Shown here piece after piece: positions 2,198 through 61,393 of a stretch of DNA of 64,000 nt (position 1 is the first letter of the stretch; each line of letters starts with the position of its first letter). The position numbers and the translations under genes were made by a program. Source of the DNA: Acorus gramineus. Taxonomy: Eukaryota; Streptophyta; Magnoliopsida; Acorales; Acoraceae. The notes under the pieces are model-generated. The model was not told where the DNA came from. It did no database searches and saw only the letters and a list, made by a program, of their open reading frames with translations. The DNA lies in assembly GCA_030737835.1 (NCBI GenBank), contig JAUJYN010000019.1, positions 2,068,433-2,132,432 on the forward strand, in the 5' to 3' direction.

Positions 2198-3670
2198 AAG
2201 CCTCTTCCAAAAGTCCCAATAGTCTCCCTCCTGGAGTGAGGGTAGGGATGAGGTGAAGACACATCGCCGCGTGACCCATTCGTTGTTCGACCGTTTCCAT
2301 AGTTGTTGGGTCCGGTCTTGAATCGATGTTCAAGGACACCGTTGGGCGATTATCTAGATAGATATGATCCAGTAGTGTTGTGTAGACCAGTAAATCCGGG
2401 TCTCTTCGACCGACGGTATGGTCTCTCCCCAAAAGTCCCAAAAGACTCCCTCTGGGAGTGAGGGTGGGGGTGAAGATGGTCGCGCCGCCACGTGACCCAG
2501 TTATCCATGGGTTTCCACCCATGTTTTCCTTGAAAGGAAATTGATTATGTATTGAACTGTAGTATGGTGATTGGTTTTCAGCCACTCACTGAGCTTGTAG
2601 CTCACCCCTCGCATAGTGTTTCTTTTCAGGGCAGTGTTGGGCGTGGAGCTGGAGCTTTCCTGTGGCATGGTCTTATGGGCGTGGTGTTATATATGTGTCA
2701 CTTTTCAGCCTTCTGGTAACCATTGGAACATTCTGGCAGTTTTTTAGCTTTTTTTCATTTTTCGATCGGAACCGCTAAAATTTTGGACTGTTAGCTATCA
2801 TCCTGAGTTTGAGGACTCGGATTGAAAATCTAACTGCATATTATGTGTCCTGGTGCCATTCCAAGCCACTCACTAAAATTTCATCGAATTCCGGTAACGT
2901 TTCAGAATTTCACAGTTCCGAATCGTATCCGGGTTTTGACTGAGCGAAAAGTCATTGGGAGACTTGACTTGGTCAAATGTGGGCCCATGACTTGGTCAAC
3001 TCCTTTGTTTTCTAGTGTGGATGGGTTGACCCAAGTCAAAGTGCACCTAAACCTAGCCTAATCCAAGCCTAATCCTAATTAGGGCTAAGTGAGTGGGTGT
3101 GAGTGTGTGTGGTGTGGGTGTGAGCATAAATAAATCCCACGACTACATTAAGCCCCACTATTCATCATCTTCTCCAAAAATTTCTCTCTCTCCCTCTCTT
3201 TAAGTCCCATTTATGATCTAGCTAGGGGTGTTGGATTGAAAATGTTATATATGTGTCACTTTTAACCTTCTGGTAACCGTTGGACCATTCTGGCAGTTTT
3301 TCGGTTTTTTTCGTTTTTCGGTTAGAACCGCTAAAATTTCGGGCTGTTAGCTATCGCCTTGAGATTGAGGGCTCCGATTGAAAATCTAACTACATATTAT
3401 GTGTCCTGGTGCCATTCCAAGCCGCTCACGAAAATTTCGTCGAATTCCGGTACGTTTCAGAATTTCACAGTTTCGAGGCGTATCCGGGTTTTGACCGGGC
3501 GAGAAGTCATTGGGAGACTTTGACTTGGTCAATGTGGACCCTTGACTTGGTCAAATGATTTTGGATTTTAGTGTGGTTGGGTTGACTAGGGTCAAACCAC
3601 ACTTAAGCCTCCCTAAACTAGCTTAAACCCTAATTAACCTAGCTTAACCTAATCTAAATGAGGTTTGACT

Positions 3671-3679
3671 TATTTAAAG
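3671..3679 (+). promoter_or_regulatory. TATA-like box of LTR promoter
   Basis: TATTTAAAG lies about 30 bp before the conserved CACTATTCATTGTCTTC block, a plausible start region followed by a long CT-rich leader. Other copies have TATA-like boxes at the same place. Confidence 0.45.
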
Positions 3680-3994
3680 AAAGCAAAAAGGTGCTCTTCA
3701 CTATTCATTGTCTTCTCCAACTCTTTTTCTCTCTCCCCCTCTCTCTTTTTCAAGCTTTTGAGCCACCTAGGGTCCTCAAAGCTTAAAACCTAAATCATAG
3801 AAAGGGTAGATCCGGTCCCGATCTACACCCCGGTGGTTTCAAATCCGAATTTCGGCGAGTCTAGCCCATTCTTCCGCCCTCTCTTCTCCTCAAATCGGAG
3901 CCATTTCGGAGGTGGGAAGAGGTCTTGGTGGTGGAGACCCTTGGAGAGGCGTTTCGGTGCGCGGAGAGCAACCGAACACCCCTTCCTTTCCTTG

Positions 3995-5157
3995 GTAAGC
4001 TCTTTTTCCTCTTCTTTTTGGCTTAGATGCTTGTTAGGAGGGGGGTTTTGGGGTTGGGTGGTGGTCGGCGGCTGTGGGTGGCTGTCGGAGGTGGTTGGGG
4101 GCGGTCGGAGGCCATGGGTGGCCGGCGGTTGGTGGTGGAGGTGCTCGGACAGGGTGTTGGGCAGTCCCGGGCGGGATGCCAGGGATGGCAGGGCTGTTCC
4201 GGGCGGGTAGCAGGGCTGGCTCGTGTTGGCTGTGCCCGCTGGCAGGCCAGGCAGACAGGCTGCGCACGCATGCAGGCAGGGCGGGCCGGTTGGGCAGAGA
4301 GGTTAGCAGTCTCGGGCAGCAGGCAGCACAGCACAGCGCATCAGGCAGGCGGGCAGTGATCGGGCAGCAGGCGAGCGGTACTCGGGCCACTCGGCGATGC
4401 GCGCAGGCAGGCAGCGTGGGCAGGCTGGCAGGCGCGTTGGGCGCGTGCTGCCAGGCGCACTGGGTCGCGGATGCTAGGCACTGGGTCGCGGGTCCCGGGT
4501 GCTGGGCGCTGGGTCGCGGATGCTGGGCGCTGGGTGTGCTGGGCGAGGGTGCTGGGCGCTGAGCACCGTGCAGGAGCATGCGCGCGGGGCGCTGGGCAGA
4601 GGCGCAGGCGTGCGCGCGGTGAGGTGAGCAGCGGATGCGAGCGGGCAGGGTGCGCGTGCGGGGCGCTGCGCTGGGACGCAGTGCGCGCGGGTGCACGGTG
4701 CGGGGCTGGTCGAGCGGATGGTGCAAGCCGGTGATGCGCGCGGGGTGCGCGTGGAGCGAGGCGAGGGCAGCGGAGGTGCGCGCGGGGTGCGCGCGGAGCG
4801 AGGCGCTGGGCGCGGGGCGTGTGGTGTGCGCGCGGGCCAGCACGGGGCATGCGGGGTGCGGGCGGGCTGCTGCGATGGGGCACAGTGGGCGCGCGGTGCA
4901 CATGGGTGGCTCGGCAGCACGTCCAGGCGTGCGGGCAGGGGCCCGGCGGTGCGCCTGGGTGCGCGGGATGAGGCGCGACGGTGCATCCGGGGGCGGGTGG
5001 CCGTGCGGGTGGTTGCCGAGGGTGCGGGAGTGAGTCAGGGTGCTCGGGCTAGCGTGCGTACGGGTCGTATGTACGTTTGCCTGAGTGTTGGGTATTTTTA
5101 GTGTATTTTTTATGTGTTTGTGGATTTTACTAACCGATTTAAATACCTGTCTTGCAG
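3995..5157 (+). other. Predicted LTR intron 1, GC-rich
   Basis: Donor CCTTG|GTAAGC at 3995. The acceptor ends CTGTCTTGCAG at 5157, with the near-ideal branch site TTACTAACC about 30 nt upstream. The middle (about 4150-5050) is GC-rich, with repeated GGGCGCTGGG and GTGCGCGCGG phrases. Length is 1,163 bp. Confidence 0.6.
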
Positions 5158-5193
5158 ATCTTGACAGACGGTCGCGTGACGACCCAGATACCT
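5158..5193 (+). other. Predicted 36-nt LTR exon 2
   Basis: Starts ATCTTGACAG and ends CAGATACCT before GTGAGTGG. Exactly 36 nt, without ATG or indels relative to other type-1 copies. Confidence 0.6.
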
Positions 5194-6334
5194 GTGAGTG
5201 GGACAATCCAACCCGGCAGGGAGGCGTTACATGCATCTGGGCGTGTACCGTCCTCCCCCGGGGCACCATAATAAATGTTAACTTGTGTAATATGAAAACT
5301 ATGTAAGCATGATAATGTGTAGTATGCATGCCACTCTAGACTTTGTATGCTAGGGACTTGTACCCTTAGGACCCGTATAAGAACCATGCATCCTATTATC
5401 ATGTTTCCCTGCTAGGAAAACCTTGACTTATGCATGTTCCCATTTAGTTTAATTTGCATATATCAAGTACGAGCATGTGATTGTTAGCATGTATTAGTGA
5501 ATATTATAGGGGAGGGGCCTCGCGAGGATAGCGGTGAGACCCGGGCTAGGGTACTCCGTGTTCTTTGTTTGGTTGTCGGGATGTCCTATATCGGGACCTC
5601 ACGCTGCCCTCCCAAGGTTATTTCCCCCAGTAATATTCCAACCTCTTTATTATGCATGTTCCTCGCATCCTGGTTATGCACCCTGGAGGAATTCTGAGGA
5701 ATTCATGACATTAGAGTTGTTGAGATGTGTTTGTCAGCGGATCCGAGTGGATCATATGCGATGGATAGGCCAATCTGTTCCCTTCGTTGGGTCCTTTAGA
5801 GACTGCCCCGACGTAGAGAGACTGTCCCGTGCAGGGGCTCCCATCAGTAGGCACCTCCTGATCTTGGACTCGGACTGTGCTGAATGTGGGAGTGGCCAAA
5901 CAGCCTACGGAGTGGGGGAGAGACTATCGGTGGACCAAGGGCGACCATCAGCCTAGTCAGTCCCAATATCCTATGTCACCCATTGAGGGGTGAGGGTGAG
6001 GGTGTAGTGGGTTGGCGATGTAGCGACCTACTGGATTGTTAGTCCCAATATCCTATGTCACCTATTGAGGGGTGAGGGTGAGGGTGTATGATTGTGTATG
6101 GATGATTATCAGGCTAATAAGTCCCAATATCCTATGTCACCTATTGAGGGGTGAGGGTGAGGGTGTAGTGGGTTGGCGATAGCGACCCACTGGCCTGTAT
6201 AGCTATTGCCATTTAGTGGCTTTTAATAATGTGATTGTGGAATAATAAGATCTGGTGGTTAATATATATTGTGATGCATGGGTTGTGCTGTTCACTGAGC
6301 GTGTGGCTCACCCCTCGCATAATATTTTCTCCAG
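5194..6334 (+). other. Predicted LTR intron 2
   Basis: Starts at GTGAGTGG and ends at TTTTCTCCAG (6334), with GGCTCACCCC about 25 nt upstream as a candidate branch site. Contains the G4/hairpin minisatellite. Confidence 0.5.
5961..6198 (+). repeat. G4/hairpin minisatellite, 3 units
   Basis: Units start TCCCAATATCCTATGTCAC at 5961, 6043 and 6122 (about 77-82 bp). Each has GGGGTGAGGGTGAGGGTG; the first and third continue into GTAGTGGG, completing four G-tracts, followed by a GTGGGTTGGCGAT...CGACC(C/T)AC hairpin. The second unit lacks the hairpin half. Confidence 0.75.
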
Positions 6335-6948
6335 TGCTATCTGAGTCGGATCTGGAGGAGGAGCTCCCCGAGGGACTTCATCAGTAGCAGAGTAGCGCTA
6401 CGTCCCGCGAGTATCAGAGGCTATCAGCATCCCTTTTGCTTGTATGTATTATATTCCGTGCTTGGGCACACGTTTGTGTTGTATTTGGATGTCTTCGTAT
6501 ATATTGGCTCTCACAGGACAGTTGATTATGTATCGAGTCTGTAATATGTTTTTGAATTACATATTCAGTCTTTAGCTTCCGCATTTGGTGTATATATCAT
6601 GTCAGCCCTGCTTCTACCTGTGTTGTCATTTTTAGCTGTTGTGTGAGTATGTTATTGAACTCCTGTTTACTGATATCATATATACACTTGCCGCGTTTCG
6701 GGGTCGGCCGGCCCTGGGGCGTGACAGAAAAACCCTAGAAGGAGAAAAGGAAGGTGAGGACCCGATCTATCTTCCGGTGGTCTTGGATCTTCATTTCCCT
6801 TTGTTTTTCCTCTTCTTATGGACCCTCTTCTCCTCTGTTTTCAGCCCCTCTTTGGCTGAGTGGAGATCTAGGTGGTGGCGGTCTTGGAGGTGGCAAATCG
6901 GTGCGCGAAGAGCACCCGTTCTTCCTCCCCTTCCCTTCCTGTCCTTGG

Positions 6949-7837
6949 GTGAGTTTTCTTTCCTTCCTTTCTTGTTTAGATGCATGTATAGGAGGTGTTT
7001 ATGGGTGTGCGAGGGGAGCATGGTGGTTTTGGTGGCTGTCGGTGGCTGTTGGTGGCGGTTGGGGTGGTAGAGCCGGCTCGGGCAGTGCGGGCTCATCAGG
7101 CCTGCGCGCGCGGGCAGGCAGGCAGGCAGACAGCGCAGGCTGGCAGGCGCGCTGTCGGGCGAGCTGGCAGGGCACGCGCGCGCGGGCGTGCACGCGGGTG
7201 CTGCGCAGGGGACGCAGTACGCGGGTTGAGCGGTTGGTGTGCGGGTGCTGCGCACTGGGCGCCGTGCGGGGCGCGCGTGCGGAGCGCTGCGCAAAGGCGC
7301 AGTGCGTGCTGTGCGCGCGGGGCTGTGTGCGGGTGCTGTGCGCTGGGCGCCGTGCGGGGGCGTGCGCGCGGAGCGCTGCGCAGAGGCGCAGTGCGTGCTG
7401 TGCGCGCGGTGAGGCGAGCGGGGAGTGCGTGTGGGGCACTGCGCTGGGGCACAGTGCGGGCGGGTGTGCGGGCGAGGCGCTGCGCTGGGTCGCAGTGCGC
7501 GCGGGTGCATCCGGGGCTGGACACACGGTGTGCACGGGCTCGCGCGTGCGTGCGCCCGAGCGTGCGGTGTGTCTGGCACGCGGGCTGCGCTCGGCAGCGT
7601 GTCCGGGCATGCGGGCAGGGGGCTCGACAGTGCGTCTGGCGCGCGGGTTGGGGCGCGGTTGTGCGCCCGGGGCGGGTGGCCGTGCGTATGGCTGCCCGGG
7701 GGTTCGGGAGTGTGTCGGGGTGCTCGGACTCGCGTACGTACGGGCCGTATGTACGTTTGTCCGAGTGTTGGGTATTTTAGTGTATTTTGGTATGTTTTTG
7801 TGTATTTTACTCACCGTGTTAAATACCTGTCTTGCAG
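6949..7837 (+). other. Predicted LTR intron 1, GC-rich (2685 LTR)
   Basis: Donor CCTTGG|GTGAG at 6949, acceptor CTGTCTTGCAG ending 7837, branch-like TTTACTCACC. The GC-rich core at 7070-7730 has repeats such as GCGCAGTGCGTGCTGTGCGC. Confidence 0.55.
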
Positions 7838-7873
7838 ATCTTGACAGACGGTCACGCGACGACCCGGGTATTG
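7838..7873 (+). other. Predicted 36-nt LTR exon 2 (2685 LTR)
   Basis: Runs ATCTTGACAG to GGGTATTG, then GTGAGTGG. 36 nt. Confidence 0.55.
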
Positions 7874-8837
7874 GTGAGTGGGACAATCCAACCCAGTAGG
7901 GAGGCGCTATATGCACTTGGGCATATACCGTCCTCCCCTGGGGCACCATAGTTTAATATTAACTTGTATAATATGTAATCTATGCAAGCATGATTAGTAT
8001 GTAGTATGCATGCCACCCTAGACCTTGTATGTTAGGGACTTGCACCCTTAGGATATGTGTAAGAGCCATGCATCCTGTCACCATGTTTTCATGCTAGGAA
8101 AGCCTCGACCTATGCATGTTCCCATTTAGTTTAATTTATTTAAATCAAATGCGAGTATATGTTTATTAGCATGCCTTAGAAAATGTTATAAGGGGCCTTG
8201 CGGGGTCAGCGTTGAGACCCGGGCTAGGGTACTCCTTGTTCCTTGTTTGGTTATCAGGATATCCTATATCGGGACCTCATGGTGCTTTCCCAAGGTTTCT
8301 TTTCCCGATAATATTATAACCTCGTTATTATAATATATGTTTCCCCGCATCTTAGTTATGCGCCCTGGAGGAATTCTGAAGAATTCGTGACATTTATAAG
8401 TTGAGATCGGTGTCGGCGGATCCGAGTGGATCGTATACGTGTGGATAGGTGTTTCTGTTCCCTTCGTTGGATCCGTATAGAGACTGCCCCAGCGTTAGAC
8501 AGGCTGTCCTGACAGAGGGCTCCCATCAGTAGGCACCTCCTGATTTGGTGACGGACTGTGTTGAATGTGGGAGTAGACCAGGCGGTCTACGGAGTGGAGG
8601 AGAGACTATCGGTGGACCAAGGGTGATTAACAGCCTAGTCAGTCCCAATATCCTAGGTCACCTATTGGAGGGTGAGGGTGAGGGTGTGGTGGCTCGGCGA
8701 TGTAGCGACCCACTAAATTGTGTAGTTCCTGCCACTTTGAGGCTTTGAATAAATTAATTGTGGTTAATATGAATTGTGATGCACGGGTTGTGCTATTCAC
8801 TGAGCGTGTGGCTCACCCCTCGCATATTTTTCTCTAG
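7874..8837 (+). other. Predicted LTR intron 2 (2685 LTR)
   Basis: Runs from GTGAGTGG to the acceptor TTTTTCTCTAG. One minisatellite unit lies at 8643-8717, its hairpin partly decayed (GTGGCTCGGCGATG, CGACCCAC). Confidence 0.45.
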
Positions 8838-14525: not shown

Positions 14526-15589
14526 GTGAGTGGGACAATCCAACCTAGTAGGGAGGCGCTATACGCACTTGGGCCTGTACCGTCCTCCCCTGGGGCACCA
14601 TGGATTTATATTAACTGGTTGTAATGTGTAATCCATGCAATCATGATAAAAATGTAGTATGCATGCTACCCTAGACTTTGTATGTTAGGGACTTGCACCC
14701 TTAGGATATGTGTAAGAGCCGTGCATCCTGTCACCTTGTTACCATGCTAGGAAAGCCTCGACCTATGCATGCGTCCTATTAGTTTGATTTATTAAATTAA
14801 ATGCTAGCATGCCTTGTATAATATTATAGGGAGGGGCCTTGCGAGGTCAACATTGAGACCCGGCTAGGGTACTCCATGTTCCTTGTTTGGTTGTCGGGAT
14901 GTCCTGTATCGGGACCTCATGCTGCCCTCCCAAGGTTTCTTGTCCCATAATATTATAACTCTTGTTAATAATCATTATTATAACTCTTGTTGATAACTAT
15001 TATTATATATGTTTCCCGCATCTTGGTTATGCGCCTTGGAGGGAATTCTGAAAATTCATGGCATGGTGTCACGCCCCAGGGCCGGCCGTCCCCGGGACGC
15101 GGCAAGTGTATATATGATATCAGTCTAAATAGGAGTTCAATAACATACTCACACAACAGCTAAAATGACAAAATGACAACACAAGCAGGGCTGACATAAT
15201 ATATACACCAATAGCGGAAGCTAAAAGACTGAATCTGTAATCCAAAAACATATTACAGACTCGATACATAATCAACTGTCTTGTGAGAGCCAATATATAC
15301 AAAGACATCCAAATACAATACAAACGCGTGCCCAAGCACGAAATATAATACATACAAGCACAAGGGATGCTGATAGCCTCTGATACTCGCGGGACGTGGC
15401 GCTACTCCGCTACTGATGAAGTCCCTCGGGGAGCTCTTCCTCCAGATCCGACTCAGATGACACTGGAGAAAATATTATGCGAGGGGTGAGCCACACGCTC
15501 AGTGAACAGCACAACCCATGCATCACAGTTTATATTAACCATAAATAATCAACCACCAGCCACAAAGTAGCATAACATCATAATCTAGT

Positions 15590-15825
15590 GGTTCGTTACA
15601 TCGCCGAACCATCATACCCTCACCCTCACCCCTCAATAGGTGACATAGGATATTGGGACTTATAAACATCCAAACACATCCACACACCCTCACCCTCACC
15701 CCTCAATAGGTGACATAGGATATTGGGACTGATAATCATCCAAACACATCCATACACATCCATACACATCCATACACCCTCACCCTCACCCCTCAACAGG
15801 TGACATAGGATATTGGGACTGACTA
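15590..15825 (-). repeat. G4/hairpin minisatellite, 3 units (A 3' LTR)
   Basis: On the plus strand each unit reads CCCTCACCCTCACCCCTCAA and ends AGGATATTGGGACT. Only the first keeps the hairpin half (GGTTCGTTACATCGCCGAACC). Spacers CATCCATACACATCCATACA extend the later units. Confidence 0.7.
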
Positions 15826-16566
15826 GGCTGTTAATCACCCTTGGTCCACCGATAGCCTCTCCTCCACACCGTAGCTTGCCTGGTCTACTCCCACATTCAG
15901 CACAGTCCGAGTCCAAGATCAGGAGGTGCCTACTGATGGGAGCCCTCTGTCAGGATAGCCTGTCTAACGCTGAGGAGTCCCTACACGGATCCAACGAAGG
16001 GGAGAGAAACAGCCTATCCACGCGCATATGATCCACTCGGATCCGCTGACTACACATCTCTACAACTCTAGTGTCTCGAATTCATCAGAATTCCTCCAGG
16101 GCGCATAACCAAGATGCGGGGAACATGCATTAGTATAAACGGGAAAAGAAACCTTGGGAGGGCACCATGAGGTCCCGATGTAGGACGTCCCGACAACCAA
16201 ACAAGGAACACGGAGCACCCTAGCCCGGGTCTCAATGTTGACCTCGCAAGGCCCCTTAATATTCCCTAAGGCATGCAATAATATTACCAGTTGCATTTAA
16301 TTTAACAAATTAAACTAATAGGAGCATACAAAAGGTGAGGCTTTCCTAGCATGATAACAAGGTGACAAGATGCATGGCTCTTACACAACCTAAGGGTGCA
16401 AGTCCCTAACATACTCAGTCTAGGGTAGCATGCATACTACATATCAATCATGCTGCATGGATTACATATTTAACAGGTTAATATTAATCTATGGTGCCCC
16501 AGGGGAGGACGGTATACGCCCAAGTGCATATAGCGCCTCCCAACTGGGTTGGATTGTCCCACTCAC

Positions 16567-16602
16567 TGATAGTCGGGTTGTCGCACGACCGTCCGTCAAG
16601 AT
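16567..16602 (-). other. Predicted 36-nt LTR exon 2 (A 3' LTR)
   Basis: 36 nt between TTGCAG and GTGAGTGG on the minus strand. G-to-A changes at CpG in the palindromic core suggest methylation decay. Confidence 0.5.
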
Positions 16603-18118
16603 CTGCAAGACAGGGTATCAACTTGGTGAGTAAAATCCACAAATACCACAAAAATACTCTAAAAATACCCAACACTCGGGCAAACGTACATACGGCCCGT
16701 ACGCACGCTAGCCGAGCACCCCGACTCACTCCCGCACCCCCGGCAACCACCCACACGGCCACCCGCCCCCGGATGCACCGCCGCGCCCAGCCCGCCCACC
16801 CAGGCGCCCTGCCGAGCCCCTGCCCGCACGCCAGGACGCACCGCCGAGCTCCCCGGGTGCACCGCGCGCTCACTGCGCCCCAACGTAGCCGCCCGCGCGC
16901 ACACCGCACGCCCCGCGCCCAGCACCTCGCCACGCGCACACCTCGCGAGCACCACCGCTCGCCTCGCCGCGCACCCCGCGCGCACCACCGCTCGCCTCGC
17001 CGCGCACCCCGCGCGCACCACCGCTCGCATCACCCCACTCGACCAGCACCCCAGCACGCCCAGCGCCCAGCACGCCCAGCACGTCCAGCGCCCAGCACGC
17101 CCAGCACGTCCAGCGCCCAGCACGCCCGCGCGCACGTCCGCGCGCATGCGCGCGCGCGCCCTGCCACTGCATTCCTGCTGCGCTGCCTGCTGCGCCTGTG
17201 CTGCCATCCTGCCCGGGACAGACAACCACTCTGCCCGAGCACCTCCACCACCACCCACCGACCACCAATGGCCTCCGACCGCCCCCAACCACCACCGACA
17301 GCCACCAGCCGCCCTCCACACTCAACCACACCCTCCTAACATGCATCTAAACATGAAAAAGAAGGAAAAACCCTTACCCAAGGAAAGGAAGGGAACCGGA
17401 GGATCTTCGTGCACCGAAACGCCTCCCAACGGATCTCCACTACCAAGACCTCTTCCTACCTCAAATGGGGCTGAAAACAGGGGAGAATAGAGGGGGTTAG
17501 AGGGGGCCAAACTTGTCGGAACTCGAATCCGAGAACACCGGGGGATAGATCGGGACCGGATCTAACCTTTCTATGTTTTGAGTTTTAAGCTTCAAGCACC
17601 CTAGGTGGCTCAAAACCAAGAAAAGGAGAGAGGGGGAGAGAGAAAACTCATTTGAGAAGATGATGAATAGTGGGGGAGACTTTTTAGATTCACTTAATAT
17701 ATAACCCTCACTTAGATTAGGGTTAAGAAAGGGTTAATTAGGCTTAAGAGAGGCTTTAAGTGGGATTTGACTTGGGTCAACCCAACCACACAAAAAAAAA
17801 AAAGGGTTGACCAAGTCATGGGCCCACTTTGACCGAGTCAACTCTCCCAATGACTTCTCGCTCGGTCAAAACCCGGATACGCCCCGGAACTGTGAAATTT
17901 CAGAAACGTTACCGGAATTCGATGAAATTTTCGTGAGTGGCTTAGAATGGCACCAGGACACATAATATGCAGTTAGATTTTCAATCGGAGTCCTCTAGCT
18001 CAGGACGATAGCTAACAGTCCAAAATTTTGCGGTTCCGATCGAAAAACGAAAAAAACTCAAAAACTGCAAGATTGCTCCAATGGTTACCAGAAGGCAAAA
18101 AGTGACACATATATAACA

Positions 18119-24937: not shown

Positions 24938-25921
24938 GTAAGCCCTATTTCTTCACTTTTCTTGCATAGATGTATGCTAGGAGGGTGGATCTGTGTATGA
25001 GGGGTGGTCGGCGGCTATGGATAGCCTTCGGGGGGCGGTGGAGGTGGTCGGAGGTCGGTGGGTGGTGGTTTGGGTGGTCTCGGGCTGCAGGGGGTGGTCT
25101 CGGGCTGCAGGGGGTCTTCTCGGGCAGCAGGCAGAGCAGCAGCAGCGCGCAGGCTGGGCGCGCGCGGTCATGCGCGCGTGCGTGCGCGGGCGCGCGTGCG
25201 CGCGGCGTGCAAGCTGGCGCGCGCGGGCGGCGTGCTGTGCCGGTCGTGCAGGCGTGCTGGGGGCCTCAGGCAGCGGGCAGCGAGCGCGAGGAGCTGGTGC
25301 GCGAGGTGCTGGGCGGGCTGGTGCGCGAGGAGCTGGTCGCGCAGGTGCTAGGCGTGCGTGCGCGAGGTGGTGGCCGAGCGCGGGCTGCGCGCGGAGGCGC
25401 GGCGAGGCCGTGGTGGTGCGCGCGGAGGGTGCGGCGAGGCCGTGGTGGTGCGCGCGAGGTGCGGCAAGGTGGCGGAGGCGCGTGCGAGGTGCGCGCGAGG
25501 TGCGGCAAGGCGGCGGAGGTGCGCGCGGGGCGAGGAGGCGTGCGCGAGGCGTGCGCGGGTCGCGGCAAGGCAGGGATGGTGTGCGCGGGGGGCGAGGCGC
25601 CGCGCGCGGGGGCGTGCGGGGTGCTCGCGGGCCAGCGCACGGCGTGCGGGGCGCGTGCGGGCTGCCGCGGCTGGGCTCGGTGGACGCGCGGAGCCCCGGG
25701 CGGTGCGCGGAGTGCGCGGGCTGAGGCGCGGCGGCGCGTCCGGGCGGTCGGGTGGCCGTGCGGGTGGTGGCCGGCCGTGCGGGGGGTTGTCGGAGTGCTC
25801 GGGCTAGCGTGCGTGCGGGTCGTATGCACGTTTGCCCGAGTGTTGGGAGTTTAATTATGGGTTTATGTATTTTGTAGTATTTATGGATTTTAACTCACCA
25901 TATTGATTGTCTGTCTTGCAG
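24938..25921 (+). other. Predicted LTR intron 1, GC-rich (24351 LTR)
   Basis: Donor CCTCG|GTAAGCC, acceptor CTGTCTTGCAG, branch-like TTTTAACTCACC. The core at 25140-25790 contains repeats of GAGGTGCGCGCG-like phrases. Confidence 0.55.
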
Positions 25922-25957
25922 ATCTTGACGGACGGTCGCGCGACGACCCCGATTCTG
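25922..25957 (+). other. Predicted 36-nt LTR exon 2 (24351 LTR)
   Basis: 36 nt containing the perfect palindrome GTCGCGCGAC, ending GATTCTG|GTGAGTGG. Confidence 0.58.
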
Positions 25958-27301
25958 GTGAGTGGGACAATCCAACTCAGTAGAGAGGTGTTATACGCAC
26001 TTGGGCGTATACCGACCTCTCCTGGGGCGACATGGATAAATATTACCTGCAAATAATATGTAATCCATGCTTGTGTGAATGAAAATGTAGAATGCATGCT
26101 ACCCTAGGCTTTTATGTTAGGGACTTACACCCATAGGATATGCGTATGAGCCATGCAGCATGTCCCCTGGTTTTCATGCTAGGAAACCCCGGCCTATGCA
26201 TGCGTCCTACTAGTTTAATTATTAAATTAAATGCTGGTATCTGTTAGATCGCATGCCTTAGGATAATATTATAGGGAGGAGCCTTGCGAGGTCAACGCTG
26301 AGACCCGTGTTAGGGTACTCCGTGTTCCTTGTTTGGTTGTCGGGATGTCCTGTATCGGGACCTCGGGCTGCCCTCCCAAGGTTCTAGTCCCAATAATATT
26401 ATATGTAATGATTGTATGATTGGTATAATTATTAGTATAGTTGGTAGATATTATAGGGGAGGGGCCTTGCAAGGACAGCGGTGAGACCCGGGTTAGGGTA
26501 CTCCGTGTTCCTTGTTTGGTTGTCGGGGTATCCTATAACGGGAACTCACGCCGCCCTTCCGAGTTTCTTTCCCCCAATGATATTCCAGCCTTACTGATTT
26601 TTGTACATGTTCCCGCATCTTGATGATGCACCTGGTTGAATTCAGAGGAATTCATGACATTTGAGTTGTAATGATATGTAGTCGGCGGATCCGAGTGGAT
26701 CATATGCGTATGGATAGGCTGTTCTGTTCCCTGCATTGGATCCGGTAGAGGCTACCCCCAACGTTAGACAGGGCCTTCCTGACAGAGGGCTCCCATTAGT
26801 AGGCACCTCCTGATTTGGTTTCGGACTGTGCTGAATGTGGGAGTAGACCAGGCGGCCTACGGAGTGGATGGAGAGACTATCGGTGGACCAAGGGTGACCA
26901 ACAGCCTAGTCAGTCCCAAAATCCTATGTCACCCATTGATGGGTGAGGGTGAGGGTGTAGTGGGTTGGCGATGAGCGACCTACTGGATTTGTGAATAGAT
27001 GATTATCAGTCCCAAAATCCTATGTCACCCATTGATGGGTGAGGGTGAGGGTGTAGTGGGTTGGCGATGAGCGACCTACTGGATTTGTGAATAATTGATT
27101 ATCAGTCCCAATAGCCTATGTCACCCATGGATGGGTGAGGGTGAGGGTGTGGTGGTTCGGCGAAGTACGAACCACTGGATTATGTTGTTAAGTATTGATG
27201 CCTGGATAAAATAATGGAATATTGGTAAATATTGTCTGTGATGCGTGGGTTGTGCTGTTCATTGAGCGTGTGGCTCACCACTCGTACATGTTTTTCCCCA
27301 G
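25958..27301 (+). other. Predicted LTR intron 2 (24351 LTR)
   Basis: Runs from GTGAGTGG to the acceptor TTTTTCCCCAG at 27301, with GGCTCACC upstream. Confidence 0.45.
26913..27180 (+). repeat. G4/hairpin minisatellite, 3 units (24351 LTR)
   Basis: Units start TCCCAA at 26913, 27009 and about 27105. Each has GGGTGAGGGTGAGGGTG and then a hairpin: GTGGGTTGGCGATG...CGACCTAC twice, GGTTCGGCGAAG...CGAACC once. Confidence 0.72.
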
Positions 27302-39351: not shown

Positions 39352-39945
39352 ACTTTTTCACACCCCAGGGCGGCCGTCCCCGAGGCGCGTTAATGGTATA
39401 TATGATATCAGCTGTCACGCCCCGGGCGTCCCCGAGACGCGGCAAGTGTATATAAAATATCAGAATCTACACAGGAGGTCAATAATATCATACAAATGAC
39501 ACACAGACAACAAAAGCAGGGCTGACATGATATATACACCAAATGCGGATAACTAAAGACTGAATCTGTAATCAAAACACACTACAGACTCCATACATAA
39601 TCACATGTCCTGTGAGAGCCAATATACATACAAAGACGTCCAAATACAACACAAACGCGTGCCCAAGCACGGAAAATAATACATACTGGTACAAGGGATG
39701 CTGATAGTCTCTGCAACTCGCGGGACGTGGCGCTACTCCGCTACTGATGAAGTCTCTCGGGGAGTTCCTCCTTCGGATCCGACTCAGATGACACTGAAGA
39801 AAAATATTGTGCGAGGGGTGAGCCACACGCTCAGTGAACGGCACAACCCATGCATCACATACAATATTGACCACAACCAGATATTCTTATAATCCACAAT
39901 TCATATTACTTAATCCACAAATGATATCACAACTCAAAGCCGTGG

Positions 39946-40290
39946 GTTGCTCAATCGCCAACCCACTACACCCTCCCCCTCACCCTTCAATGGGCGACAA
40001 AGGATATTGGGACTGGCTACACATAACCAGCGGGTCGCTTCCGCCAACCCGCCACACCCTCACCCTCACCCTTCAATGGGTGACATAGGATATTGGGACT
40101 TACTGCACCAAAAACCAACGGGTCGCTTCCGCCAACCCGCTACACCCTCACCCTCACCCTTCAATGGGTGACATAGGATTTTGGGACTTACAAGCATCCA
40201 ATCACCACTCCAGTGGGTCGTTCATCGCCAACCCACTACACCCTCACCCTCACCCTTCAATGGGTGACATAGGATTTTGGGACTGACTAG
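39946..40290 (-). repeat. G4/hairpin minisatellite, 4 units (B 3' LTR)
   Basis: Four units, each with plus-strand CACCCTCACCCTTCAATGGG and a hairpin whose arms vary together: GTGGGTTG/CCAACCCAC, GCGGGTCG/CCAACCCGC (twice), GTGGGTCG/CCAACCCAC. Changes that keep pairing (GTGGG to GCGGG with CCCAC to CCCGC) are seen. Confidence 0.75.
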
Positions 40291-41048
40291 GCTGTTGGTT
40301 ACCCTTGGTCCACCGATAGTCTCTCCTCCACTCCGTAGGCCGCCTGGTCTACTCCGACATTCAGCACAGTCCGTCCTAAATCAGGAGGTGCCTACTGGTG
40401 GGAGCCCTCTGTCAGGAAGGCCTGTCTAACGCTGGGGTAGTCTCTACCGGATCCAACGAAGGGAACAGAACAGCCTACCCATCGCATATGATCCACTTGG
40501 ATCCGCAGACGGCACATTATAACAACACTAATGTTCTGAATTCCTCAGAACCCACCAGGGCGCATAACTACGATGCGGGGAACATGCATAAGGTTATAAC
40601 AGGGTGGAATATCGTTGGGGAAAGAAACTCGGGAGGGCAGCGTGAGTTCCCGTTATAGGACACCCCGACAACCAAACAAGGAACATGGTGTACCCTAACC
40701 CGGGTCTCACTGCTGTCCTCGCAAGGCCCCTCCCCTATAATATTCACTATAACATGCATTGTAAACAAATACTAGCATTTAATCAAATAAATAAACTAGT
40801 AGGGCACATGCATCGGCCGGGCTTCCTAACATGGAACCAGGGGACATGCTGCATGGCTCATACACATATCCTAAGGGTGAAGTCCCTAACATTCAAAGTC
40901 TAGGGTAACATGCATTCTACAATTTAATCATGCTCGCATGATATACATATCATTGCAGGTTAATATTTATCCATGACGCCCCATGAGAGGTCGGTATACG
41001 CCCAAATGCGTATGACCCCTCTCTACTGGGTTGGATTGTCCCACTCAC

Positions 41049-41084
41049 CGGAATCGGGGTCGTCGCGCGACCGTCCGTCTAGAT
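41049..41084 (-). other. Predicted 36-nt LTR exon 2 (B 3' LTR)
   Basis: 36 nt starting ATCTAGACGG, with intact GTCGCGCGAC palindrome. Confidence 0.55.
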
Positions 41085-42973
41085 CTGCAAGACAGACATT
41101 CAATATGGTGAGAACAATGCATAAAATACCCAAAAATACATCTAAAATACCCAACACTCGGATAAACATACATACGGCCCGTACGCACGTGTATCCGAGC
41201 ATCCCGAGCGCACCGCCGAGCCCCGGCCCGCGCGCCAAGGCGCACTGCCGAGCCCAGCCCGCATACCCGGACACCACCGGCGCACTGTCGCACGCCTCCC
41301 CGCGCGCCCTGACGCACCGCCGCACGCACGCGCACACTCGCGCGCGCCCGCGCGCACCGCGCGTCCAGCCCAGCGCGCCCCCGCGCGCACTGCACGCACG
41401 CCCCAGCACGCGCACGCACTGGCCCCCAGCACCGCGCGCACTGGCCCCCAGCACCGCGCCCAGGCGCATGCCCAGGCGCCCTGCCCAGCACTCAGGCGAA
41501 GTGCCCAGGTGCCCTGCCGCGCGGGCCCGCGCGCACTCCCGCGCACACCCCCGCTCGCGCCAGCACCAGCGCGCACCCGCGCACCCACTCCACGCGCACC
41601 CGCGCGCACGCACCCGCGCACGACTGCGCGCCCGACTGCGCCCGCCAGCGCCCAGCGCCCAGCACCCGGCACCCGCGACCCAGCGCCCAGCGCCCGAGAC
41701 CCTCACCCAGCGTCCACGCGCACGCCCGCGCAACACGCGCCCAGCGCGCCTGGCAGCACGCGCTCAGCGCGCCTGCCAGCCTGCCCGCGCTGCTGCCCGC
41801 GTTGCCTGCCTGCGCGCGTCGCCGAGTGGCCCGAGCACCGCTCGCCTGCACGCCCGGGGCACTGCCCGCCTGATGCCCGAGCGCCCCTGCCCTGCTCGCC
41901 TGCGCGCCCAGCCAGCTCGCCCGGCCTGCCAGCGCTCACAGCCCAGCAGCCTGCTCCGCACGCCTCTCCTGCACCCCCCGAGCGCACGCCCGTGCGCGCG
42001 CCCGCGCGCACGCGCTCGCGCGCCCAGCAAACTGGTGCCCTGCTCCCAGCCTACCCAGCTAGCCCTGCCAGCCTAGCACCCGACTAGCCCTGCACGCCCA
42101 GCACCAGGCACGCCCAGCGCCAGCCCGAGCGCACGCCCGCGCGCACGCCCGCGCGCACGCACGCGCGCGCTGCCAGCGGCCCTGCCTGCTGCGCCTGCGG
42201 CTGCTGCGCCTGCTGCTGCTGCCCTGCCATCCTGCCCGAGCCCGAGCTCCTCTACCACCCACCTCCGACCACCACCACAGCCTCCGACCGCCTCCCACAG
42301 CCCTCCGACGGCCACCCACCGCCGCCAACCGCCTCCCAACCACAAAACACCCCCCTAGCATACATCTATGCAAGAAAAAGAGGGAAAGGGGGCTTACCAA
42401 GGGGAGGAGGGGAAGTCCGGTGGCTCTCCGCGCGCCGAAACCTTTCCAAAGGCCTCTACGCCCCGATCTACCTCCCCGGAGATGGCTCAAATCAGGGACG
42501 AAAAGGGGGCGGGGAGGCAATCGTCGGAATTGGATTTGAAGACACCGGAGTGTAGATCGGGACCCGATCTACACTTCCCGTGCTTTAGGTTTTTGATTTT
42601 GAGGGGTCTAGGGGGCTCAAACGGAAGAAAAACGGAGGAGAGGAGAGAGAGAGAGCAAGTCGTAGGGATGATGAATAGTAAAAAGATATTTTTGATTCCT
42701 TTCATATAATGCGCGACTTAAAAACCCGGATACGCCCCGGAACTGCGAAATTTTTGCAAACGATGCCAGAATTCGATGAAATTTTCATGAGTGGCTTAAA
42801 ATGGCACCAGGACACCAAATATGCAGTTAGATTTTCAATCGGAGTCCTCTAGCTCAGACGATAGCTAACAGTCTGAAATTATGCGGTTCCGATCGAAAAA
42901 CCCTAAAAATTTTAAAACTGCCAGAAATGCTCCAACGGTTACCAGCAGGCTAAAAAGTGACACATATATAACA

Positions 42974-44642: not shown

Positions 44643-45964
44643 TCATAGGCAGCTAGGGAACAAAACATTACTTCGAACCATGACGCCCGAAACCTGGGCC
44701 TCCTCAGCCGAAAGCGCTGCAACCCTGCCTTGAACAAACTGCGGCAGAGGAGCAAGAGCACGCCTCGCCGGCTGCCGCTGCTGAGGTAGCACTCGGGGTC
44801 GGCCAGCATCAAGGCAATTGTATCTGATATGCCCGATGCGCTGACAATGGAAACAGCGTCGCCTCTCCGGTCGCCAGGACTGGATGGGCACTGCCGCAAT
44901 GGGTGCTGGATCCCACTCTGGCACCGCATCTGCTGGAGGAGAGGCAGCCGCTGACTGATCGAAACGGGGCCTCCTCCTCTTGCGCTGCCCCAGGTCCCGA
45001 CTCCCGGAAGGACCCTGATCTGCAGAAAGGGTCGGAACCCCCACGATAATCCCGAGGTCTCGCTCGACTGTCTTCGCCCGAGACACCAAGTCCGAGAACC
45101 TCGAGAAAGCCTGGGAGGAGACATGCACCCGAATGGCGCTGCAGAGACCAAGCTCGAAACGGCGGCACCGCGCCTCTTCGTCCATCACCAAAGCTGGAGC
45201 GAACCTGGATAGCCTCGTGAAGCGCGTGGAGTAGTCGGCGACAGACATAGAGCCTTGCGTCAACCGCTCAAACTCCTGCACCACGATCTGCTGCGCCGAG
45301 AACGGGAAGTACTCCTCCAGGAAATACCTCTGGAATCCTGCCCAAGAAAACTGCTCCACTCCCTCTGGAATGTCCACCACTCGGGCAGCCCACCAGTCGG
45401 CAGCGCTACCCTTCAGCATGAAGGTGGCCAGAGAGACTTGCTGGCGATCGGTGCAAAGCATGGTCGAGAAGATCACCTCCACCCCATCAACCATCGCTCT
45501 GGGGCAAGGGGATCCGCCAACTGGCCATAGAACTCGGGAGGTGGAGCTTTAAAAACTGCGAGGCCACTCTGCTGCACCCGCGCTGCAGCCTCTAGTCCCA
45601 CCTCCCTCGCCAGGGGATCCTGAACCCTCGCCGCTGGAAACACCACGGGGACTGGGGGTACTTCGGGTACCACAGACGGATCTGCTGCCAAGGGGACCTG
45701 TGGAACTGCATCACGGGCCGCCCTCAGCTCCCGGATCTCCCGCGCCTGCTCTACCAACGCTCTGGTCTGCGCCTCCAGTGCCTTGATCCGAGTCTCCACC
45801 GAATCCGCTGTCCAAGCGAACGCACGTTCCCGTGCGGGAGGCTCCTGCGCCGATCCTGGCCTCACAGCCGTGGACTCTCCAGTAGCATCCTCGCCTCTAG
45901 CAGGTCCGAAATCCTCCAAAGGTCGAGAGGGACCATGTCCGCGCCGTCCTCCACGAGGAGACAT
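44643..45964 (-). pseudogene. Element B gag with one frameshift
   Basis: Starts MSPRGGRRGHGPSRPLE at 45964. A coiled-coil-like stretch follows (ALEAQTRALVEQAREIREL), then PPPEFYGQLADPLAPERWLM. A small indel near 45480 shifts frame, then IFSTM, LKGSAADWWA, FQRYFLEEYFPF, LTQGSMSVADYSTRFTRLSR and the knuckle CFHCQRIGHIRYNC (44814-44855). It stops at 44643 just before the protease DSG. The capsid and nucleocapsid are otherwise open over about 440 codons, the best kept gag in the window. Confidence 0.88.
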
Positions 45965-46065
45965 ATCAGCAATCCTAAGAAAACCAGACACTAGGATCAG
46001 AATACTCATATCAAAATCCTAGGACTCATCTCTACGAAAGAAGACCATTGGCTCTGACAGGACCA

Positions 46066-46078
46066 GGCTCTGATACCA
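46066..46078 (-). promoter_or_regulatory. Primer-binding site of element B
   Basis: Minus strand TGGTATCAGAGCC, perfect 13-nt complement to the initiator-methionine tRNA 3' end, six bases from the LTR end at 46085. Confidence 0.92.
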
Positions 46079-46612
46079 CCTTTTTGTCACGCCCCGGGCG
46101 TCCCCGGTACGCGGCAAGTGTATATATAATATCAGAATCTACACAGGAGGTCAATAATATCATACAAATGACACACAGACAACAAAAGCAGGGCTGACAT
46201 GATATATACACCAAATGCGGATAACTAAAGACTGAATCTGTAATCAAAACACACTACAGACTCCATACATAATCACATGTCCTGTGAGAGCCAATATACA
46301 TACAAAGACGTCCAAATACAACACAAACGCGTGCCCAAGCACGGAAAATAATACATACTGGTACAAGGGATGCTGATAGTCTCTGCAACTCGCGGGACGT
46401 GGCGCTACTCCGCTACTGATGAAGTCCCTCGGGGAGCTCCTCCTCGATCCGACTCAGATGACACTGAAGAAAAATATTGTGCGAGGGGTGAGCCACACGC
46501 TCAGTGAACGGCACAACCCATGCATCACAGACAATATTCACCACAACCAGATATCCTTATAATCCACAATTCATATTACTTAATCCACAAATGATAGCAC
46601 AACTCAAAGCCG

Positions 46613-46957
46613 TGGGTTGCTCAATCGCCAACCCACTACACCCTCACCCTCACCCTTCAATGGGCGACAAAGGATATTGGGACTGGCTACACATAACCAG
46701 CGGGTCGCTTCCGCCAACCCGCCACACCCTCACCCTCACCCTTCAATGGGTGACATAGGATATTGGGACTAACTGCACCAAAAACCAACGGGTCGCTTCC
46801 GCCAACCCGCTACACCCTCACCCTCACCCTTCAATGGGTGACATAGGATTTTGGGACTTACAAGCATCCAATCACAACTCCAGTGGGTCGTTCATCGCCA
46901 ACCCACTACACCCTCACCCTCACCCTTCAATGGGTGACATAGGATTTTGGGACTGAC
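46613..46957 (-). repeat. G4/hairpin minisatellite, 4 units (B 5' LTR)
   Basis: Same four units in the same order as the B 3' LTR. Confidence 0.75.
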
Positions 46958-47719
46958 TAGGCTGTTGGTCACCCTTGGTCCACCGATAGTCTCTCCTCCA
47001 CTCCGTAGGCCGCCTGGTCTACTCCCACATTCAGCACAGTCCGTCCTAAATCAGGAGGTGCCTACTGATGGGAGCCCTCTGTCAGGAAGGCCTGTCTAAC
47101 GCTGGGGTAGTCTCTACCGGATCCAACGAAGGGAACAGAACAGCCTACCCATCGCATATGATCCACTTGGATCCGCAGACGGCACATTATAACAACACTA
47201 ATGTTCTGAATTCCTCAGAACCCACCAGGGCGCATAACTACGATGCGGGGAACATGCATAAGGTTATAACAAGGTGGAATATCGTTGGGGAAAGAAACTC
47301 GGGAGGGCAGCGTGAGTTCCCGTTATAGGACACCCCGACAACCAAACAAGGAACACGGTGTACCCTAACCCGGGTCTCACCGCTGTCCTCGCAAGGCCCC
47401 TCCCCTATAATATTCACTATAACATGCATTGTAAACAAATACTAGCATTTAATCAAATAAATAAACTAGTAGGGCACATGCATCGGCCGGGCTTCCTAAC
47501 ATGGAACCAAGGGACATGCTGCATGGCTCATACACATATCCTAAGGGTGCAAGTCCCTAACATGCAAAGTCTAGGGTAACATGCATTCTACAATTTAATC
47601 ATGCTCGCATGATATACATATCATTGCAGGTTAATATTTATCCATGACGCCCCAGGAGAGGTCGGTATACGCCCAAATGCGTATGACCCCTCTCTACTGG
47701 GTTGGATTGTCCCACTCAC

Positions 47720-47755
47720 CGAAGTCGGGGTCGTCGCGCGACCGTCCGTCTAGAT
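47720..47755 (-). other. Predicted 36-nt LTR exon 2 (B 5' LTR)
   Basis: 36 nt between TTGCAG and GTGAGTGG on the minus strand. Confidence 0.55.
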
Positions 47756-50441
47756 CTGCAAGACAGACATTCAATATGGTGAGAACAATGCATAAAATAC
47801 CCAAAAATACATCTAAAATACCCAACACTCGGATAAACGTACATACGGCCGTACGCACGTGTATCCGAGCATCCCGAGCGCACAGCCGAGCCTCGGCCCG
47901 CGCGCCAAGGCGCACTGCCGAGCCCAGCCCGCATACCCGGACACCACCGGCGCACTGTCGCACGCCGGCCCGCGCGCCCCGACGCACCGCCGCACGCACG
48001 CGCACACTCGCGCGCGCCCGCGCGCACCGCGCGTCCAGCCCAGCGCGCCCCCGCGCGCACTGCACGCACGCCCCAGCACGCGCACGCACTGGCCCCCAGC
48101 ACCGCGCGCACTGGCCCCCAGCACCGCGCCCAGGCGCATGCCCAGCACTCAGGCGAAGTGCCCAGGTGCCCTGCCGCGCGGGCCCGCGCGCACCCGCGCG
48201 CACTCCCGCGCACACCCCCGCTCGCGCCAGCACCCGCGCGCACCCGCGCACCCACTCCGCGCGCACCCGCGCACCCGCGCGCACGCACCCGCGCACGACT
48301 GCGCGCCCGACTGCGCCCGACTGCGCCCGCCAGCGCCCAGCGCCCAGCACCCGGCACCCACGACCCAGCGCCCAGCGCTCAGCGCCCAGCGCCCGGGACC
48401 CTCACCCAGCGTCCACGCGCACGCCCGCGCAACACGCGCCCAGCGCGCCTGGCAGCACGCGCTCAGCGCGCCTGCCAGCCTGCCCGCGCTGCTGCCCGCG
48501 TTGCCTGCCTGCGCGCGTCGCCGAGTGGCCCGAGCACCGCTCGCCTGCACGCCCGGGGCACTGCCCGCCTGATGCCCGAGCGCCCCTGCCCTGCTCGCCT
48601 GCGCGCCCAGCCAGCTCGCCCGGCCTGCCAGCGCTCACAGCCCAGCAGCCTGCTCCGCACGCCTCTCCCTGCACCCCCCGAGCGCACGCCCGCGTGCGCG
48701 CCCGCGCGCACGTGCTCGCGCGCCCAGTAAACTGGTGCCCTGCTCCCAGCCTACCCAGCTAGCCCTGCCAGCCTAGCACCCGACTAGCCCTGCACGCCCA
48801 GCACCAGGCACGCCCAGCGCCAGCCCGAGCGCACGCCCGCGCGCACGCACGCGCGCGCCCTGCCAGCGGCCCTGCCTGCTGCGCCTGCGGCTGCTGCGCC
48901 TGCTGCTGCTGCCCTGCCATCCTGCCCGAGCCCGAGCTCCTCTACCACCCACCTCCGACCACCACCACAGCCTCCGACCGCCTCCCACAGCCCTCCGACG
49001 GCCACCCACCGCCGCCAACCGCCTCCCAACCACAAAACCACCCCCCTAGCATACATCTATGCAAGAAAAAGAGGGAAAGGGGGCTTACCAAGGGGAGGAG
49101 GGGAAGTCCGGTGGCTCTCCGCGCGCCGAAACCTTTCCCAAAAGCCTTCTCACACCCCGATCTAGCTTGTCCCTAATCAGAGGACGAAAAGGGGAGGTCG
49201 GGGAGGCTAGGATCGTCGGAATTCGGATTTGAAGACACCGGAGCGTAGATCGGGACCCGATCTACACTTCCCGTGCTTTAGGTTTTTGGTTTTGAGGGGT
49301 GTAGGGGGCTCAAACGGAAGAAAAACGGAGGAGAGGAGAGAGAGAGAGCAAGTCGTAGGGATGATGAATAGTAAAAAGATATTTTTGATTCCTTTCATAT
49401 AATGCGCGACTTAAAAACTCGGAAAACCCTAAAAATTTTAAAACTGCCAGAAATGCTCCAACGGTTACCAGCAGGCTAAAAAGTGACACATATATAACAT
49501 CAGCAGTCTAAACAGGAGGTCAATAATATACTCTAAACAACAACAACAATGACAATACAGACAGCAATGAGGCTGACATAATATATACACCAATAGCGGA
49601 AGCTAAAGACTGAATCTGTAATTCAAAGACACATTACAGACTTAATACATAATCAACTGTCCTGTGAGAGCCAATATATATACAAAGATATCCAAATGTA
49701 ATACAAACATGTGCCCAAGCACGGAATACAATACATACAATCAAAAAGGGGGATGCTGAATGGCCTCGCACACTCAGAGCGTGACACTGCTCCGCTACTG
49801 TAGATGCGCCTCGGGGAGCTCCTCTTGGCCCACCGATAGCCTCTCCTCCACACCGTAGCTCGCCTGGTCTACTCCCACGATCAGCACAGTCCGACGCATC
49901 GGAGGTACCTACAGATGGGAGCCCTCTGTCAGGACAGCCTGTCTAACGCTGAGGAGTCCCTACACGGATCCAACGAAGGGAAGAGAGCAGTCTACCCACA
50001 CGGATACGATCCTCTTGGATCCGCCGACACCGATTGCAACTCTACAAATGTCATGAATTCTTCAGAATTCCTCCAGGGCGCATAACTAAGATGCGGGGAA
50101 GCATATATTATAACCACGAGGTTATAATATTCTCTAAGGCATGCTAATAACCATAAGCTCGCATTTGATTTAAATAAATTAAACTAAATGGGAAACATGC
50201 GTAGGTCGAGGCTTTCCTAGCATGATAACATGGTATCAGGACGCGTAGGTCTCATACATAATATAAGGGTGCATATCCCTAGCATACAAAGTCTAAGGGG
50301 GCATCGATGCAACATAATGATCATGCATAGCACAGTTTATATTTAATAATAGCTAATATGCAACTATGGTGCCCCAGGGGAGGGCAATGCACGCCTATGT
50401 GCATCGAACGCCTCCCTACTGGGTTGGATTGTCCCACTCAC

Positions 50442-55129: not shown

Positions 55130-55857
55130 GTGAGGTTTCTTTCCTTCCTTTTCTTGTTTAGATGCATGTTAGGAGGGTGTTTTTGGGTATGCATGGCTGT
55201 TGGTGGCGGTTGGTGGCGGTTGGTGGCCATTGGTGGCCGTCGGGGAGGTGGTAGGGTTGTCTCGGGTAGGCTGGCAGCGCAGGCAGGCAGGCTGGCAGGC
55301 AGGGCGGGCAGAGCAGGCTGGCAGGGCACGCGCGCGTGCGCGCGGGTGGAGCAGGAGTGTGCGGGTGCTGCGCGCTGGGCGCCGTGCGGGGGCGTGCGCG
55401 CGGGGCGCTGTGCAGAGGCGCAGTGCGTGAAGTGCGCGTGGGGCCGCGAGCGGGTGCTGCGCGTAGGGCACCGTGCGGGGGCGTGCGCGCGGAGCGCTAT
55501 GTAGATGCGCAGTGCGTGCTGTGCGCGCGCGGTGAGGCGAGCGGGTGGTGCGCGCGGGGTGCTGCGCTGGGGCGCAGGGCATGCGGGTGTGAGCGCGAGT
55601 TGCTGCGCTGGGGTGCAGTGAGCGCGCGGTGCACCCGAGGGGCTCGGCAGCGTGTCCGGGCATGCTGGCAGGGGCTCGGCAGTGCGTCTAGGCCGGGTGG
55701 CCGTGCGTATGGCTGCCCGGGGGTTCGAGAGTGAGTCGGAGTGCTCGGACTCGCGTGCGTACAGGCCGTATGTACGATTGTCTGAGTATTGTGTATTTTT
55801 ATGTATTTTGTATGTATTGTGTATTTTACTCACCGAGTTGATTACCCTGTCTTGCAG
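55130..55857 (+). other. Predicted LTR intron 1, GC-rich (54350 LTR)
   Basis: Donor CCTTGG|GTGAGG, acceptor CTGTCTTGCAG, branch-like TTTACTCACC. Shortest type-1 GC-rich core seen on the plus strand (55265-55745). Confidence 0.55.
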
Positions 55858-55893
55858 ATCTTGACGGACGGTCGCGCGATGACCCGATTATTT
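55858..55893 (+). other. Predicted 36-nt LTR exon 2 (54350 LTR)
   Basis: 36 nt with GTCGCGCGAT core, ending TTATTT|GTGAGTGG. Confidence 0.55.
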
Positions 55894-59690: not shown

Positions 59691-59729
59691 CATACGACCC
59701 GGGACCTCGCGCATCCCATTCGACGAGAT
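59691..59729 (-). other. Predicted 39-nt LTR exon 2 (right type-2 LTR)
   Basis: 39 nt, equal in length to 905-943, flanked by CCTTGCAG and GTGAGTGG on the minus strand. Confidence 0.5.
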
Positions 59730-61357: not shown

Positions 61358-61393
61358 CGAAACCCGGGTCATTGCGTGATTGTCCGTCAAGAT
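61358..61393 (-). other. Predicted 36-nt LTR exon 2 (60137 LTR)
   Basis: 36 nt. The palindromic core is decayed (AATCACGCAATG), but length and both splice sites are kept. Confidence 0.52.

Follow-up and report, generated by a model that had tools for sequence, protein, structure and literature searches.

The 64,000-nt stretch of the Acorus gramineus genome analysed here (the window) is a nest of Ty3/gypsy copies related to one another. Retrotrans_gag, RVP_2, RVT_1 and RT_RNaseH_2 matched above cut-off in open reading frames of different window copies, and Chromo at the integrase C-terminus reached 21.9 bits against a cut-off of 25.1, behind a SH3_Tf2-1 match. Scanning the window for Rfam families and for tRNAs gave no matches. 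The elements presumably belong to the Tekay/Del clade, a label backed by the size and the end of the LTR. The reference LTR, copy b, extends from position 3243 to 6726 on the forward strand (3484 bp, TG...CA), its ends being placed where the copies stop aligning, and has no gag behind it.

The original prediction had located two introns, separated by a tiny exon, in each of nine LTR copies, and all nine sets of splice sites were found at the predicted coordinates and on the predicted strands. Copy b (forward strand) reads as exon 1 (3700–3994, the unmapped 5′ end being a guess from a TATA-like region), intron 1 (3995–5157), exon 2 (5158–5193, 36 nt), intron 2 (5194–6334) and exon 3 (6335–6441, 107 nt, ATG-free). 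From the start of intron 1 to the end of intron 2, the other copies cover positions 296–2629 (copy a, of a divergent family, with a 39-nt exon 2 containing ATGs), 6949–8837 (c), 24938–27301 (d) and 55130–56977 (e) on the forward strand, and 15463–17377 (f), 39794–42397 (g), 46464–49088 (h) and 60520–62298 (i) on the reverse strand. Donor 1 is GT[A/G]AG, acceptor 1 is TTGCAG, donor 2 is GTGAGTGG, and acceptor 2 consists of CTCAC, pyrimidines and [C/T]AG in 9/9 sets; exon 2 measures 36 nt in all but copy a. Four additional exon-2 copies were seen near 14500 (+), 23900 (−), 50480 (−) and 59730 (−), the first of which no longer has the AG at acceptor 1. A coding role for exons 1–3 was rejected: the joined exons of the 12 copies shown have stops in all three frames and share no open reading frame.

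The host genome comprises 398.6 Mb in 137 contigs. A first look with the exon-2 region yielded 3644 candidates, of which 40 were scored and 38 of these fetched (one of the 40 was the window itself). Acceptor 1 was intact in 38/38 fetched copies and donor 2 in 37/38. Among the 32 with exon 3, acceptor 2 was CAG in 31 and GAG in the remaining one, and the GTATGT at the end of exon 3 (donor 3) was kept in 31/31 readable copies. Donor 1 was present in all 33 copies whose exon-1 match reached it, a biased count since it was sought by its own motif. Boundary conservation, computed on distinct 50-mers from 32 copies, changed in steps at the exon/intron limits. At donors 2 and 3 and at acceptor 2 the intron side was nearly invariant and the exon side variable. 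A blind comparison of dinucleotide retention within the window gave nothing for donor 1 (retained in 3/9 copies, blurred by a one-base shift). In the same comparison acceptor 2 was retained in 8/10 copies, little different from the mean of 0.75 for other AGs. This window-only test was dropped for its small number of copies and the shift at donor 1.

Branch-like sites were sought in 8 window and 24 genome copies taken together. A CTNAY motif was found between −45 and −15 in 31/32 copies for intron 1 and in 31/32 for intron 2, the median position of its A being −25; of the control windows in the two introns, 1% and 6%, respectively, contained it. The stricter CTRAY was present in 1/32 (intron 1) and 0/32 (intron 2). 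This sample and that of the ATG counts below exclude 14 of the 38 genome loci, where the script could not place a site, as well as copies a, f2, x14, x50 and x59 and other partial window copies. Scored with splice matrices, the sites ranked high but not always first, donor 2 ranking 55 of 213 in copy e and 86 of 239 in copy f.

The exons were poor in ATG. It had been claimed that the spliced leader of the 3243 copy is free of ATG from about 3700 to 6444, and this is so. Counting as exon 1 the 270 nt before donor 1 (215 in copy c), exon 1 lacked ATG in 5/8 window copies, exon 2 in 6/8 and exon 3 in 8/8; there were five ATGs in exon 1 (copies c, e and i) and two in exon 2 (copies e and i). Across the 24 genome copies, exon 1 had 1 ATG versus 39, 103, 11, 93 and 58 occurrences of the other five orders of the same three bases, exon 3 had 1 versus 64, 47, 40, 52 and 41, and exon 2 had 2 ATGs, while ATG occurred 264 times in intron 1, 755 times in intron 2 and 132 times in the opening 280 nt of intron 3. 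Considering only positions common to at least two copies, ATG accounted for 2/67 in the exons (2 versus 65 for the other orders) and 124/593 in the introns (124 versus 469; Fisher p 1.1e-4). U3 pieces of the eight window copies showed no depletion (30 ATGs versus 48, 19, 21, 29 and 61). Two ATGs are found in exon 2 of the 296 copy, whose family runs against the leader pattern, with ATGs in exons 2 and 3.

The strongest evidence for splicing comes from copies in the genome from which intron 1 is missing exactly. A search for the exon 1 end and the exon 2 start within 14–42 nt of each other detected 17 exact exon 1/exon 2 junctions in the own genome; the reversed-pattern control detected 0. Every junction respected the same GT..AG limits, 14 reading TTG|ATCT and 3 TTGG|ATCT, and in intron-bearing copies, too, exon 1 ends in either TTG or TTGG. 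Ten of the 17 were fetched, and each of them extends from the start region of the LTR across exon 1 and into exon 2, with donor 2 located 36 nt further on; the context of acceptor 2 was visible in 7/10 of these 3-kb loci, and 5/10 carried ATG within exon 1 or exon 2. Three pairs of junctions lie on the same strand about 5.1 kb apart (C2:7693189 / 7698312, C54:738886 / 744001 and C78:713356 / 718444), as would be expected of short elements with an LTR at either end.

A 50-row tree, built from 10 intronless copies (out of 17) and 40 intron-bearing ones with intron 1 excluded from the alignment, required at least four changes in intron-1 presence, the starred branches forcing four. A single clade of intronless rows was rejected (p-AU 4e-65). 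Such a tree cannot tell gain from loss, but four gains of the same intron at the same base are not credible. One more match, not included in the tree, has the ATCTAGAC variant seen in copies g and h and might represent a fifth event. Recombination between copies could also have spread the intronless state. Reverse transcription of a spliced RNA leads to LTRs lacking the intron concerned, and intron 1, judged from these genomic copies, is almost certainly spliced. It has the attributes of a spliceosomal intron: GT..AG limits, a branch-like site and exact excision.

One may ask whether splicing is needed at all, the motifs being fortuitous or conserved for reasons related to DNA or to another RNA function, and the copies lacking intron 1 being ordinary deletions. 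LTR deletions do occur (at L048, C6:25022328, the deletion runs from inside intron 1 to inside intron 2, so that donor 1 and acceptor 2 remain and exon 2 is gone), and the sites are situated within well conserved LTR blocks. Ordinary deletions would nevertheless have to end 17 times out of 17 at the same GT..AG limits, in TTG| (14) and TTGG| (3), having arisen four or more times on the tree. The branch-like sites and the ATG pattern also speak against this explanation, which is highly improbable. Site conservation and its steps, the branch-like motifs, the ATG depletion and the recurrent exact loss of intron 1 are all visible in the DNA and amount to more than chance. The original proposal that the LTR transcripts are spliced is supported for intron 1 by the 17 exact junctions and at least four events; the model itself is probably one intron short.

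The base composition of intron 1 is unusual for a plant intron. Its ends are rich in U (49% in the first 40 nt and 45% in the last 90 nt), and its interior contains 75% GC and 15% U. Short GC repeats, with long and seemingly spurious open reading frames on both strands, were noted in this interior, for instance at 4040–5040.

The third intron would start at the end of exon 3, where the aligned copies have GTATGT (GTTTGT in copy i). In copy b, alignment and conservation place this donor 3, and the portion of intron 3 that is inside the LTR, at 6442–6726 (+). Splicing had been thought to clear the upstream ATGs, and the depletion in the exons agrees with this; a three-exon leader would still carry ATGs before gag, since the LTR end beyond 6442 holds 6 to 8 per copy (8 copies, b–i), with more between the PBS and gag. 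A third intron, missed in the original prediction, would be needed. In copy h, intron 3 is predicted to occupy 45975–46358 (−), from donor 3 through the LTR end and the PBS to TTTTCTTAG. The PBS, TGGTATCAGAGC, which we take to be of the tRNA-iMet type, is at 46067–46078 (−), inside this intron, and the gag ATG is at 45962–45964 (−), 10 nt past acceptor 3. A PBS directly follows the 5′ LTR, as TGGTATCAGAGC behind two LTRs and as TGGTATTAGAGC behind a third. Acceptor 3, TTTTCTTAG|G, precedes the gag ATG by 9–10 nt in 3/3 window leaders and in 9/10 genome loci with a displayed gag match, the tenth display lying inside the LTR. Two of the window leaders have CTGAT or CTAAT upstream of it, and the remaining one has GTGAT. 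A second acceptor-like site, followed by an upstream ATG, precedes acceptor 3 between the PBS and gag and scores higher in 2/3 leaders; in the model it would go unused. The predicted third junction would join exon 3 to GATTGCTGATATG or its variants.

Splicing might instead stop at introns 1 and 2, the conserved TTGTATGTATT near 6440 being a polyadenylation or R/U5 element and Gag being translated, from a leader in which the LTR end and the PBS remain, by leaky scanning, shunting or reinitiation. TTGTA-like motifs do occur in plant poly(A) regions. Conservation continues past GTATGT, and the exon side of donor 3 is usually poor as a donor, the bases upstream differing between families (rank 7 of 240 to 29 of 207 in eight copies). 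A copy devoid of intron 3 was not found in the genome search, though neither model needs one. However, the absence of ATG from exon 3 stops exactly at GTATGT, a good acceptor is positioned just before the gag ATG, and the 6 to 8 ATGs of the LTR end would all stay in the leader. We regard leaders with two introns as unlikely, and a third intron, deduced from the arrangement of these motifs, as probable. Its removal would clear the remaining upstream ATGs together with the PBS.

Intron 2 is defined by the site check, the boundary conservation and the branch-like sites; we consider it very likely to be spliced. It harbours a conserved hairpin at 5212–5262 (+) in copy b, 18 nt past donor 2. The hairpin folds in 13/13 window copies, with energies from −23.7 to −33.8 kcal/mol, and 86.9% of cells are paired compared with 37.7–57.3% when the pairing is slid. 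Covariation was modest: its score was matched by 4/500 shuffles, and the proportion of pairs changed on both sides (3/20) was matched by 131/500. The hairpin could, as a hypothesis, be a packaging or dimer signal. In L011:2701-2778, an arm of its loop shows a short tandem duplication. Elsewhere in intron 2, a unit of about 80 nt with CCTATGTCACC-ATTGAGGGGTGAGGGTGAGGGTGT is present three times in copy b (5970, 6052 and 6131) and, as an exact pattern, once in copy e (56791).

No counterpart of the 17 junctions was obtained for the other introns. Pattern searches of the own genome gave 0 matches for the intron-2 loss junction (with a broader exact pattern), 0 for a donor 1 to acceptor 2 junction and 0 for the intron-3 loss junction. 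An earlier intron-2-loss pattern, allowing 3 mismatches and blind to the TTGCCACTGAGC type of exon 3, had produced 55 matches with 2–3 mismatches, mostly ordinary acceptors; two of them, C1:31823307 and C54:1532205, seem to be of neither kind and were left uninspected. The anchors of the patterns were present in 30 (exon 1/exon 2), 24 (exon 2/exon 3), 26 (exon 1/exon 3) and 29 (exon 3 anchor of the intron-3 pattern) of 32 placed copies, and the gag anchor of the intron-3 pattern fitted 9/12 leaders examined. With anchors almost equally common, differences in sensitivity hardly explain 17 versus 0.

We propose the following organization of the 5′ leader. It would comprise four exons and three introns, the first two introns lying entirely inside the 3.5 kb LTR and the third beginning close to the LTR end, spanning the PBS and finishing some 10 nt short of the gag ATG. 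Removal of all three would leave exons 1, 2 and 3 (about 300, 36 and about 107 nt) nearly adjoining gag, and the resulting RNA, with its short and mostly ATG-free leader, would be the gag-pol mRNA. Such an RNA, having neither the PBS nor the intron-2 hairpin, could not be the template. The template would be an RNA retaining introns 2 and 3, and with them the hairpin and the PBS, intron 1 being present or gone. The complete four-exon model with separate mRNA and template is, in our judgement, reasonably likely, and the division of labour between mRNA and genome taken by itself, as read from the DNA, slightly less so. Whether the LTR acts as a splicing switch, with the bulk of its long leader made of introns that enclose the PBS and a packaging hairpin, retention itself marking the genome and splicing marking the gag-pol mRNA in a reversal of the retroviral rule for Gag, is evenly balanced.

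The asymmetry of intron loss could also result from ordered splicing in which intron 1 goes first. This belongs to a reading where the introns are spliced and serve expression or export, the hairpin is employed otherwise and intron 1 is merely the most efficiently spliced of the three. Intron-mediated enhancement is known in plants, the preservation of donor 2 in 10/10 fetched intronless copies is what ordered removal predicts, and the modest covariation of the hairpin fits this view. On the other hand, the position of the PBS inside the predicted intron 3 means that fully spliced RNA would not be primed in the usual way. We find this reading somewhat unlikely, and retain the model with distinct mRNA and template.

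In retroviral leaders the splice donor is followed by the packaging signal, Gag is made from unspliced RNA, and spliced RNA retains the PBS. The predicted gag mRNA of the Acorus element differs in being spliced and deprived of the PBS, and two whole introns are contained in the LTR. The proposed likeness lies in a spliced RNA lacking leader signals and an unspliced RNA serving as genome (PMC12789967). Plant LTR retrotransposons are described as generally intronless except Ogre and EVADE in a 2025 review (PMC12786077), in agreement with the original remark that introns inside LTRs are rare in plant Ty3/gypsy elements. No report of introns inside plant LTRs was found in the literature searched, where most subscription papers were out of reach.

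Ogre, of the Tat lineage, is likewise a Ty3/gypsy element with a facultatively spliced intron, the only intron mentioned in the consulted passages of PMC6317226; that intron lies between the gag-prot and RT ORFs, whereas those of Acorus are in the LTR leader. Retrosat2, RIRE3 and RIRE8 of rice are assigned to the Del/Tekay clade (PMC6317226). These are Ty3/gypsy elements with LTRs above 3.2 kb ending in GGGCGTGACA, to be compared with GGGGCGTGACA in the Acorus element; their grass members have an extra ORF0, and no introns are reported for them, the word "intron" occurring 0 times in the main text (PMC3485330). In that text the cause of the long LTR is given as unclear, and the origins and functions of large LTRs are called poorly understood (PMC3485330). 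BARE1 of barley resembles our model by its separate RNA pools for translation and reverse transcription, with splicing involved. It differs in being Ty1/copia, in pools distinguished by TATA box, cap and poly(A), and in a 104-nt intron located within gag that yields a Gag-only mRNA (PMC3735527), unlike the Acorus introns, which precede the gag ATG. EVADE and the alternatively spliced copia elements of sunflower have spliced and unspliced isoforms that play different roles; these are Ty1/copia elements in which splicing removes coding sequence, not the LTR leader, to give a short GAG (PMC12786077 and PMC7730604).

Introns inside the LTR would give long LTRs a job and would offer a simple separation of mRNA from genomic RNA. 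Should the splicing switch also operate in other Tekay/Del elements, their LTR lengths above 3 kb would be accounted for. Exact intron loss is a record readable from DNA that can be searched for in any sequenced plant, and annotation ignoring splicing would misjudge the leaders that such elements have in their mRNA.

The divergent family of copy a (296-2684 and 58043-59965) is abundant, with 2969 first-look candidates, the 40 scored ones being 97–100% alike to it; as its ATGs are kept in exons 2 and 3, its use of the leader may differ. The segment 39413-49423 contains two LTRs 95.9% alike, each followed by a PBS and gag, with gag-side internal stretches only 83.8% alike, an arrangement that resembles a fusion of two elements by LTR recombination. 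The first of the internal regions is short, at about 3.35 kb.
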